Source: Steroidobacter sp.
Lineage (GTDB): Bacteria > Pseudomonadota > Gammaproteobacteria > Steroidobacterales > Steroidobacteraceae
Direction: 5' to 3'
DNA length: 40,025 nt
Assembly (NCBI RefSeq): GCF_016790065.1
Contig: NZ_JAEUPY010000309.1
Span: 1-40,025, forward strand
The translations under genes and the position numbers were made by a program. The first letter of the stretch is position 1. Each line of letters starts with the position of its first letter. This document shows, in pieces, positions 30,077-32,797 of this stretch. The notes under the pieces were generated by a model. That model was not told the DNA's origin. It made no database searches and saw only the letters and a program-made list of their open reading frames with translations.

Positions 30077-31468
30077 CTACCGTCCCGCTGACGATCCCGC
30101 CGGGTCGGACAAGCCACTTTGTTTGCGGAACCAGTCGACCTGCTGCTGAAAGTAGCCGTCTTCGTAACCCAGCGTGACGCGCTCGCCGTTCTCTTCCTTG
30201 AAGCGGGTGATGCCGTGCTCGGCGTCCGGATAGATGAAATATTCGATAGGTCTGCCGGATGCCTGCAACTTGTTCAGCACCTCGACACTCCAGGGCGTCG
30301 GCGCGCTCGAATCCTTGCCAGCGAAAATCCAAAAGCTGGGCGTGTCGAGCTTGGCTAGCGTTTCCGCCGGATCGTACAAGCGATCGATGAACGGCGGCTG
30401 CATGCGACCGTACTTCCACCAGATATAAGGCCGCACCACCCACAACGGCATGTCCGCCCCGACGATCATGCCGAAGATGGAATCGCTGTGTTTGGCGGTC
30501 TCGAACCAAGGCTTATCTCGCGACGCCTTCAGCGCTTTGGAGAAGTCACCCCAACGGTTCTGGCCGCGATCGAAGATGTCACCGAGGATGGCGGCGACAC
30601 TGTCCATCTCCGCGATTTCCTTGTCGCCGAAGCCGTGTTGCTGAAAGGCGTAAACATAGCCCCATCGGTCTTCGCCCAACACCGGCACGGCCACGCCGAA
30701 GCCAACCAGTACGCTGCGGATGTTGCCGTCCTTCAATGCCGCCAGCGGCGCGATCCAGCCGCCTTGGCTGTAGCCCGCTAGATGAACTTTGTCGCCGTCG
30801 ATTTCTTTGCGGTTCCGCAGGTATTGGACTGCTGCGACGGTGTCGTCCGAGAGCACGTCGAAGTTCGCTGTGTATGTTCCTTCTGAACCGCCGGTGCCGC
30901 GTTTGTCATAAACAAATGCAGCGACTCCGCTGGCGGCGTGGATGTATGGATCGGAGTAGTGGACGACTGCGCTGTAGTCTTCCGAGCCGTGCACCGGGAT
31001 CATCACTGGGAACGGACCTTGGCCTTCCGGCAGGATCAGTTTTCCTCTTAACGTCAGCTCGCCGCTTTTGAAGCTGACTATTTCTTCTTTGAGAGGGAGG
31101 CGGCTGGCTTTGTTCGTCTTGTCGGCTTTGCCATTGACGATGTGCTGCCAGGTGAGACCCTTGAGATTGCCGTTGTCGTCGCGCTTGAAATGCACGCGAT
31201 TGATTATCGGCTGTCGCTCGGCCCAACCTGGGCCGCCTTCGTAACTACCATCCTTTTCGTTCGGCCACAGAGCGCCGGTTTCGCCGTTCAGCTTTTTGTA
31301 ACGCAGGTCAGTGGTGTCTCGCGGGGCGATCACCACCAGTGTGCCGTCGTCGAATCTATATGCGCCGGAATAGCGGGTATCGGGGGGTTGTTCTTTGTTC
31401 GTAGCAAGGAATGCCACGCCGGCGATGACGATGAGCGCCGCTACGGTCCACAGTGTTTTCTTTCGCAT
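30077..31468 (-). CDS. Secreted alpha/beta hydrolase (dienelactone hydrolase/prolyl-oligopeptidase-like)
   Basis: The 463-residue protein has an N-terminal signal or anchor helix (6-22). A beta-rich N-terminal region of about 110 residues follows, then an alpha/beta-hydrolase domain with VHGSEDYS (oxyanion loop), VYDKRGTGGSEG, nucleophile Ser234 in GYSQGG, likely acid Asp386 in AGKDSSAP, and His418 in DAEHG. The architecture matches exported esterase/acyl-hydrolase proteins of unknown substrate. The start ATG 31468 has no obvious strong ribosome site. Its promoter must lie in the unusual repeat-bearing region upstream. Confidence 0.82.
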   Translation of the reverse strand: MRKKTLWTVAALIVIAGVAFLATNKEQPPDTRYSGAYRFDDGTLVVIAPRDTTDLRYKKLNGETGALWPNEKDGSYEGGPGWAERQPIINRVHFKRDDNGNLKGLTWQHIVNGKADKTNKASRLPLKEEIVSFKSGELTLRGKLILPEGQGPFPVMIPVHGSEDYSAVVHYSDPYIHAASGVAAFVYDKRGTGGSEGTYTANFDVLSDDTVAAVQYLRNRKEIDGDKVHLAGYSQGGWIAPLAALKDGNIRSVLVGFGVAVPVLGEDRWGYVYAFQQHGFGDKEIAEMDSVAAILGDIFDRGQNRWGDFSKALKASRDKPWFETAKHSDSIFGMIVGADMPLWVVRPYIWWKYGRMQPPFIDRLYDPAETLAKLDTPSFWIFAGKDSSAPTPWSVEVLNKLQASGRPIEYFIYPDAEHGITRFKEENGERVTLGYEDGYFQQQVDWFRKQSGLSDPAGSSAGR

Positions 31469-31598
31469 GCTTGCCCGCGTTTCCGTGCCGCCCGAGGTGG
31501 GCTGTCATGGGTTGGACGCAGCTCAGGGCTTTAAGGTTGCTACAAACCGTTTCTACCAACTCAGCGGCGCGGTTGTTAGGAGGTTTGGGTAGGTGGCT

Positions 31599-31750
31599 GG
31601 CGGCGGCTGTCGGGGGGAAGTGTTCTCTCGGCACCGGCACGGTCGCAGCGCCACTGCGCCGCTCCGCGCACGTCCCTGATGAGCCTGTGGGAAAACACGT
31701 CCCTGTATTTCCAACTGCCGAGAGAACACTTCCCCCCGACATCCACCGCC
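31599..31750. repeat. Palindromic repeat element, copy A
   Basis: A perfect 26-bp inverted repeat (31608-31633 with 31716-31741) extends with two mismatches to 31599 and 31750, and encloses an 82-base loop. The arms begin TGTCGGGGGG and end CGGCA. The loop is the reverse complement of that in copy B over about 85 bases, with one substitution and one short gap/substitution cluster. Inside the loop CACGTCCCTG occurs twice, at 31669-31678 and 31696-31705. Confidence 0.9.
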
Positions 31751-31770
31751 GAAACGTCGGTGACAGCAGA
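31726..31770. repeat. 45-bp direct repeat, first copy (right arm and flank of element A)
   Basis: This stretch matches 31808-31852 at 39 of 45 positions by my count. It covers most of the right arm of copy A and about 20 bases beyond it, including ACGTCGGTGAC. It shows that the repeated unit extends past the stem. Confidence 0.8.
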
Positions 31771-31807
31771 CCGCTCCACTGATGCCTCTATTCCTCGCGG
31801 CGAGGGG

Positions 31808-31852
31808 ACACTTCCCTCCGACAGCTACCGCCAGAACGTCGGTGACGGCAGA
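31808..31852. repeat. Truncated third copy of the palindromic element (right arm and flank only)
   Basis: Homologous to 31726-31770 (39 of 45 identical). No matching left arm or loop precedes it; instead a short GC hairpin (CCTCGC/GCGAGG, about 31793-31805) abuts it. Its arm resembles that of copy A (AAGTGT-type on the reverse strand) rather than copy B. Confidence 0.75.
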
Positions 31853-32078
31853 TGCCATCCGTTGAGTCCTCCCACCGATATGTTTGTGGCCGCCAGATAC
31901 TGTCGGTTGATGCCTCCCTGCGATACGTCTGATTGATTTGTTCATTTCATGCCAAACCTCTTCGGGCGGTCGGCTGTCGCTGATATGTTCGCGCCGTATT
32001 CTCCGCTGCAAAGACATTCTGCAGGGCTGAGCCAACGAGTGCAGGCATCGCGGCCGCGCGGACACTACCAACGTATAG

Positions 32079-32227
32079 GCGGTGGCTGTCGGGGGGATGG
32101 GCCCTTCCGGCAGTTGGAAATACAGGGACGTGTTTTCCTACAGGCTCATCAGGGACGTGCGCGGAGCGGCGCGAGGCGCTGCGACCGTGCCGGTGCCGGA
32201 AGGGCCCATCCCCCCGACAGCCACCGC
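32079..32227. repeat. Palindromic repeat element, copy B (inverted relative to A)
   Basis: A perfect 34-bp inverted repeat (32079-32112 with 32194-32227) encloses an 81-base loop. The loop is nearly the exact reverse complement of the loop of copy A. The arms share the outer TGTCGGGGGG and the inner CGGCA with A but differ in the middle (ATGGGCCCTTC against AAGTGTTCTCT), each remaining perfectly self-complementary. It ends 40 bases beyond the stop of the lipoprotein gene, where it could act in 3'-end formation. Confidence 0.9.
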
Positions 32228-32267
32228 GAACCACCGACGCTCCGACTCCGACTCCGAACCCGAAAAC

Positions 32268-32627
32268 TCAGGGCCCGCGATCAAGCGGCCGAGCCGTGAC
32301 CATCATCCACTCAACACCAGTGGGCACAAGCTGCCCCGGCGGCGCGTATTTGAATGTACGAACCCAAGCAGTCAACGCCTGTTGTATACACACCGGTCCA
32401 GGCGGAGCCTGGATCTCGCCGGTTCTGCCATCACTCAACACTTTGAACTCAACAAAGTAACTGCCACTCGCCTGGCAGTCCTCCGCCACGGTCAGTGGCT
32501 GCGACTCGAGCAGCTGAAGATCCGGTGCTCTGGGTGAAGAAACAGGCGTGGTTTGGCAACCGCCCAAAGCCAACAACAAAATCCCAAGCCCCAGGCGCAC
32601 TCGTCGGCGAATGTGGTACAGCGACAT
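32268..32627 (-). CDS. Small lipoprotein with TonB-C-like domain
   Basis: The 119-residue product has a basic N-terminus (HIRRRVR), a hydrophobic stretch and a lipobox LALGG-Cys24. The rest (about 50-119) resembles a TonB C-terminal-type beta-alpha-beta fold: YFVEFKVLSDGRTGEIQ, then an alpha stretch ALTAWVRTFKYAPPGQ and a final strand GVEWMMVTARPL. Two cysteines (about Cys53 and Cys82) could form a disulfide. ATG 32627 is preferred because the lipoprotein signal begins there; the frame reads back to 32663. Role unknown. There is no ExbB/ExbD or receptor nearby, so it is not a normal TonB. Confidence 0.72.
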   Translation of the reverse strand: MSLYHIRRRVRLGLGILLLALGGCQTTPVSSPRAPDLQLLESQPLTVAEDCQASGSYFVEFKVLSDGRTGEIQAPPGPVCIQQALTAWVRTFKYAPPGQLVPTGVEWMMVTARPLDRGP

Positions 32628-32797
32628 GATCAACGACCCTGCATCGACCCAGCTCGAGCCCAAGAGTACACCCGCTGTCGCAGGAAACGTCGAGATGTCC
32701 GCTCGCCCTTCCCTCCCGACCGTTCGCCAAGTATTTTCAGCACCCTGCGCGACCGAGAGTAGAAAACGCAGTCAACATTTATAAAGGTGAGTCCAGC

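Follow-up and report, generated by a model that had tools for sequence, protein, structure and literature searches.

What are the two inverted hairpins, each roughly 150 bases long, that occupy positions 31599..32227 of a Steroidobacter sp. contig (NZ_JAEUPY010000309.1), and what keeps their stems paired where the stem sequences differ? We addressed this question by computational analysis of positions 1 to 40,025 of the contig (40,025 nucleotides [nt]; the window), starting from a first-pass annotation made from the letters alone. We conclude, with a probability of roughly 0.7, that the two hairpins, here called elements A and B, are copies of a dispersed, mobile, structured RNA element with a CsrA-clamping head. 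The transcript of the motif strand (minus for A, plus for B) is predicted to fold into a stem of ∼34 bp bearing a two-hairpin head, in which two ANGGAY hexaloops would be placed for clamping by one CsrA/RsmA dimer. Stem sequence would be largely free provided that pairing holds, giving each genomic site its own stem, and the head would be the constrained part, replaced between copies within a genome.

Matched stems and a twin-hairpin head

Element A (31599..31750, motif strand minus) has arms at 31599-31633 and 31716-31750 around a head at 31634-31715, and element B (32079..32227, motif strand plus) has arms at 32079-32112 and 32194-32227 around a head at 32113-32193. A repeat scan of the window gave arms of 35 nt with 94% complementarity and 82 nt in between for A, and arms of 34 nt with 100% complementarity (34 bp, perfect) and 81 nt in between for B; in the window, 2 places have arms that pair perfectly over ≥16 bp within 200 nt, compared with none in 20 shuffles. 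In A, pairing is perfect over the inner 26 bp, and the stem extends 9 positions further, 2 of them non-Watson-Crick. The arm scan and coordinates bear out the first-pass description of mutually inverted hairpins with perfect arms and near-identical loops (on the motif strand, the two head sequences diverge at only a few positions), as well as its observation of compensated stem differences: at 6 of the 26 arm positions that they share, A and B carry different bases, and each such difference has its complement in the facing arm. Rather than one copy that covaried afterward, A and B appear to be two site-specific stems bearing similar heads.

A similarity search with B recovered more copies in its own genome and in 4 further genomes of the same genus (Steroidobacter/Peristeroidobacter); two weak matches from other genera in the family, L015 and L016, seem fortuitous. 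A model of the head plus inner stem (R1), built from 19 similarity-found copies, matched 34 times in the window's genome (G000), 22 times in Steroidobacter agaridevorans (G001), 29 times in Peristeroidobacter soli (G003), 21 times in S. gossypii (G010), and 17 times in P. agariperforans (G011), with no match in nine other genomes of the genus. By a long-hairpin scan of 100 fetched loci and the window, we obtained 102 distinct elements across these five carriers, 78 of which have arms of 31 to 36 bp. The search for further copies that the annotation had suggested thus yielded more than 100 in the genus, and the element is not confined to this locus. Because assembly contigs begin or end at copies (C544 and C56 in G000, several in G003 and G200), these copy numbers are probably too low.

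Pairing is maintained throughout this set. Watson-Crick pairs make up 94.5% of the stems in the 91 copies with arms of ≥30 bp, and in the stem middle the share is 96.4% between a copy's own arms, compared with 49.1% when arms are swapped between equal-length copies. The 177 non-Watson-Crick pairs among 3,320 in the genus comprise 96 G-U pairs on the motif strand, 13 A-C pairs (which are G-U on the opposite strand), and 68 other mismatches. The G-U:A-C ratio leans the same way in all five genomes (21:4, 21:1, 13:0, 23:3, and 18:5) and is 35:7 at the inner 25 positions of 78 copies, a restriction that avoids recurrent outer positions. These counts, like those given below for other families, take in related copies that are not independent, so binomial values overstate their significance. 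Judged from the sequences, the excess points to selection on RNA of the motif strand.

The head itself holds two hairpins with ANGGAY hexaloops, and 84 of the 102 copies have exactly two motifs, with starts 23 to 30 nt apart; the other 18 carry one, three, or four. Setting aside the 3 copies in which two motifs could not be placed, the 99 remaining genus copies contain 44 distinct hairpin 1 and 42 distinct hairpin 2 sequences. When other families were included (72 and 71 distinct sequences), pairing and both-side changes exceeded those in all 500 shuffles, with 119 both-side changes versus 42.5 shuffled for hairpin 1 and 24 versus 4.3 for hairpin 2. At 3 pairs, hairpin 2 is short, and it is also less regular, with its second and third pairs Watson-Crick in only 53 to 55 of 99 copies in a simple register. 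In element B, hairpin 1 (32116..32138, plus) presents the hexaloop AGGGAC at 32124-32129 in a CsrA-type ACA-GGA-GU context, placed by sequence, fold, and covariation; hairpin 2 (32145..32162, plus) presents AGGGAC again at 32151-32156, 27 nt past the first, placed by sequence and covariation, and the single-sequence fold draws a different pairing there. The two AGGGAC hexaloops of A, located by sequence, lie on the minus strand within 31672..31704 (31704-31699 and 31677-31672).

The GGA thus sits in a hairpin loop within an ACANGGAYGU context, of which the flanking AC and GU are retained in many copies, not all. The passages of PMC7652899 drawn on here give RUACARGGAUGU as the SELEX (systematic evolution of ligands by exponential enrichment) consensus for CsrA sites and 10 to 63 nt, with an optimum of >18, as the separation over which a CsrA dimer bridges two sites. 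The head motif agrees with this consensus, and the hexaloop spacing falls within the bridging range. A CsrA gene (PF02599) is present in 5/5 carriers, a finding that is not specific, since 18 of 21 searched genomes were positive. On this basis, the head likely binds CsrA/RsmA.

A compact form in other gamma-proteobacteria

A pattern of two CANGGAYGT motifs was present in 52 of 369 sampled genomes of the class, compared with 26 for a reversed control pattern, which gave one or two matches per genome except in one genome with eight. At 9 of 30 loci (one per genome), the outer stem score was ≥15, versus a maximum of 11 in 600 shuffles. Copies fetched from several families share the same design, in most cases around a compact head of ∼52 nt. 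Most stems in a given genome are unrelated to one another; the exceptions are G448, whose stems resemble each other, and Izhakiella, whose stems are near-identical, and none was found at the two loci of G298. In a cross-family alignment of 12 gap-poor copies, 19 of 20 outer pairs showed both-side changes, and the covariation score was 0.847, compared with 0.200 for shuffled and at most 0.160 for slid alignments. The G-U:A-C ratio was 49:13 in other families plus Izhakiella, with one element counted twice (L231/L247), and 3:3, with no excess, in G371 taken alone.

A model of the compact form (R2), for which 17 of 29 aligned compact copies were left out of alignment A4 for register reasons, matched 75 of the 369 gamma-proteobacterial genomes, representing 68 of 271 genera (E value of 0.001). 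Per-genome counts were often at least 11, with the best 11 candidates scored in each. Twin CANGGA motifs were found at 30/30 loci fetched from this search, versus 22/300 shuffles, and stem scores of ≥14 were found at 25/30, both of which are partly expected because R2 contains both features; the G-U:A-C ratio at loci fetched after the search was 11:4. Among 34 chosen loci, R2 matched with E values of 6e-14 in G013 (a genome of the window's genus), 4.6e-10 in Izhakiella, and 1.2e-6 at L126 in the window's own genome. R1, run on 117 genomes from the order and on 369 from the class, matched its own genome only; this negative is weak, since few candidates were scored per genome (33 and 10), and R1 misses even G013, which R2 detects. 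Common descent of the large Steroidobacter form and the compact form is probable from these sequence comparisons.

Variants of the design were also seen. In Izhakiella australiensis (Enterobacterales), we found at least eight copies that are near-identical and have shorter stems, some of them lying on one strand within a few hundred bases of each other (L168, L178, L191, L201, L206, and L208). At four loci (L234, L236, L239, and L241), we observed tandem ANGGAY hairpins and found no long outer stem, and at L234 and L241 they directly follow a terminator-like hairpin with a T-run.

No description of this family was found in searches of open-licence literature, and at the gathering score Rfam 15 gave no match for the window and only tRNAs in 20 related loci; relaxed E values brought up microRNA and small RNA (sRNA) models and TwoAYGGAY at 25.3 bits. 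TwoAYGGAY RNA (RF01731) is the nearest catalogued family; in the sections of the two sources used here, it is proposed to sequester CsrA (PMC4333381) and is placed in the human gut, gamma-Proteobacteria, and Clostridiales (PMC2864571). The model RF01731 had no match in 14/14 genus genomes or in 14 control genomes, and the only score obtained with it, 25.3 bits in Izhakiella, lies below the 43-bit cutoff. The two families share two hairpins, but the AYGGAY loop is not found here, loop position 2 being mostly G (44 of 72 distinct hairpin 1 and 35 of 71 hairpin 2 sequences), and the present stems, unlike those of TwoAYGGAY, are ∼33 bp long and site specific, occurring in dozens of copies per genome and often in divergent pairs. 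The sRNAs CsrB, CsrC, and RsmX/Y/Z likewise use GGA hairpins, there titrating the CsrA/RsmA dimer. They come from a small number of dedicated genes (one or a few), each of which has many GGA sites, whereas the present element has two sites, a long stem, and many dispersed copies.

Stems kept at sites, heads exchanged, and divergent pairs

Flank comparison placed many elements at orthologous sites, after 9 of 102 unanchorable copies had been left out and 4 of 37 flank pairs (L109/L082, L128/L074, L160/L098, and L145/L152) dropped as short or non-syntenic. In 23 same-orientation orthologous pairs, stem identity was 0.793, compared with 0.661 for random partners (reached in 0 of 2,000 draws), and head identity was 0.701, compared with 0.694 (reached in 606 of 2,000). 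Since stem identity exceeds the random level and head identity does not, the stems are inherited with the site and the heads swapped for other types. The 14 opposite-orientation combinations were unremarkable (averages of 0.668 and 0.668), and one of them, L086/L120, shares its stem at 0.92. The picture is not a clean one on either side: the orthologous partner was the best stem match in the genome in only 11 of 23 cases (and the best head match in 3 of 23), and the head was kept at ≥0.85 in 4 of 23 pairs, all of them G001/G011 or G003/G011. Insertion of heads into preexisting palindromes was considered and set aside: the empty form CTYCCGGCA-(0-28)-TGCCGGRAG occurred in none of the five carriers and once in G013, a search that covers the commonest inner-stem sequence only.

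Elements also occur in pairs. All 15 neighboring pairs within 1.5 kb in the five genus genomes are divergent, like A and B, which are separated by a spacer at 31751..32078. Loci of other families include 5 divergent pairs (L232, L256, L259, L261, and L262) and 2 same-strand pairs (L168 and L206, both from Izhakiella). Three comparisons showed whole pairs duplicated within a genome at 89 to 93% identity, the homology stopping 16 to 71 nt beyond the outer elements. By eye, heads differ in type in 14 of the 15 genus pairs, the window's pair alone having the same head type twice; in L261 and L262, from a distant family, divergent pairs combine two different element types, and both orders are found.

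The pair in the window lies in a block (31545..32285, approximate ends) that is absent from the orthologous gap of four relatives, where ∼100 nt without an element separate the same two genes. With the gap empty in four relatives, A and B appear to be a ∼700-bp gain at this site, or the remnant of repeated loss elsewhere. No target-site duplication was recognized at the block, the ends of which are not exact. The copies' outer flanks are conserved, and the right outer flank of B, GAACCACCGACGCTCC (32228..32243, plus), resembles the right-flank consensus from 78 copies. A solo, headless, decayed copy of the left arm of A lies at 31798..31831 (minus), within an 82-nt direct repeat (31719-31770/31801-31852).

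The annotation had also proposed looking for a RAYT/IS200-like transposase (REP-associated tyrosine transposase, where REP stands for repetitive extragenic palindrome). Y1_Tnp had no match in 5/5 carriers, in a search directed at Y1 transposases only, and mobilization by a RAYT/IS200 enzyme is therefore not supported. In the other genus genomes searched, a Y1 transposase scored above the cutoff in 6 of 8. Spread by phage was likewise set aside, with 0 viral contigs containing the Steroidobacter head pattern and 2 containing the compact-head pattern; on one IMG/VR contig (L323), we observed a compact-head element that folds with a long stem and could be host DNA. One compact element searched against plasmids gave no match.

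The element's neighbors in the window are both on the minus strand: upstream, a small conserved lipoprotein-like open reading frame (32268..32663; start probably inside, tblastx matches in six relatives, no Pfam match), and downstream, an alpha/beta hydrolase (Peptidase_S9-like) gene (30077..31468). By simple home-made gene calls, which at the window missed the lipoprotein-like frame, 0 of 102 copies overlap a gene; the flanking genes are convergent for 42 copies, co-directional for 27 and 26, and divergent for 4, and 3 copies lie at edges. Copies between divergent genes are thus 4 of 99, compared with 26 of 129 background gaps of >200 nt. A strict sigma-70 pattern, TTGAC[AT]-N16-19-TA[TC]AAT, was found in none of 102 upstream regions, and T-runs follow the stem in 5 of 102 downstream regions. 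Tandem repeats with a period of ≥20 adjoin the copies upstream in 22 of 101 cases and downstream in 18 of 102.

Weighing RNA-level against DNA-level explanations

That this is a selected RNA or single-stranded DNA hairpin, as the annotation had offered, is supported by the covarying stems and head hairpins and by the strand-specific G-U excess. Its alternative, arm homogenization by template switching, would in full form make these neutral palindromes with mutational, unselected covariation. Many stems are indeed perfect or almost perfect, tandem repeats, a sign of replication trouble, stand beside about a fifth of the copies, and G371 lacks the excess, but arm correction would erase G-U and A-C pairs alike, so the overall strand-specific excess counts against it. 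The two short head hairpins moreover covary separately around an invariant hexaloop, and the same design recurs across many families. Template switching as the sole cause is accordingly disfavored, and we judge neutral palindromes very improbable. A noncoding mobile DNA element, MITE-like (miniature inverted-repeat transposable element) or composite with hairpin ends, is unlikely by our estimate; on that view, a transposase or recombinase would recognize the head hairpins in DNA form, and their RNA appearance would be secondary. It would suit the pair's presence where four relatives have an empty gap, the duplication of composite pairs as units with homology ending just outside them, the conserved outer flanks, and the contigs that end at copies, and like MITEs the elements are short, noncoding, and polymorphic between relatives. 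Yet the terminal arms, which a MITE should conserve, vary from copy to copy (49% paired when swapped), and the G-U excess follows each element's motif strand, which in divergent pairs means opposite DNA strands. The lack of a Y1 match in the five carriers, in a search covering Y1 transposases, also speaks against it, and no target-site duplication was recognized at the inexact block ends.

REPs and the bacterial interspersed mosaic elements (BIMEs) built from them are dispersed intergenic palindromes at gene ends, found in inverted pairs, and the present family is similar in being dispersed, intergenic, palindromic, and paired in inversion; it differs from the REP/BIME-RAYT system in having no Y1 match in five carriers and in conserving the loop, not the palindrome. 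A terminator or an mRNA-stabilizing 3′ structure of the REP/BIME kind, with GGA loops that are incidental or serve another protein, would explain the avoidance of genes and of divergent intergenic gaps, and the long stem would block 3′ exonucleases. Against it, T-runs past the stem are rare, and what is conserved is the loops, not the stem, with a sequence that is the CsrA consensus in hairpin context; we therefore consider this explanation quite improbable.

A structured RNA element with a CsrA-clamping head is thus the reading we favor, and several observations weigh against it. Orientation relative to genes is near-symmetric (taken in their own orientation, 69 of 99 copies have a co-directional upstream gene and 68 of 99 a downstream gene that faces them), which would leave many copies dependent on a promoter of their own or on long read-through, and the A-B spacer had no promoter-like match in what is a weak test. 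The invariance of GGA is partly by construction, because GGA is in the search patterns and in R2, although the core is likewise invariant in the 19 copies from the plain similarity search. R2 gave no match to A or B at E values up to 1, and with R2 their head type gave an E value of only 0.04 in L086.

If the favored reading holds, the most likely target of the element is the Csr/Rsm system, on which it would act either as a multicopy CsrA decoy or as a CsrA-binding, RNA-protecting structure at transcript 3′ ends; the decoy role is one guess out of two or three. A bolder extension, which we regard as doubtful, is that the head is a homing RNA cassette that replaces heads in old, site-specific stems serving as sockets, perhaps by an RNA-templated or hairpin-guided route, and that the CsrA-site heads of a genome undergo concerted evolution, acting as a tunable CsrA buffer that is distributed over the genome and occurs in much of the gamma-proteobacteria.

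If true, the structured-element reading would add a common gamma-proteobacterial RNA family that is absent from the RNA family library searched (Rfam 15), and many gamma-proteobacterial genomes would carry tens of paired CsrA-type sites beyond the known sRNAs, which would change models of CsrA/RsmA titration. An inherited stem with an exchanged head would be an unusual way for repeats to evolve and is open to testing by genome comparison, and the family offers a ready test of RNA-level versus DNA-level selection on long bacterial hairpins.
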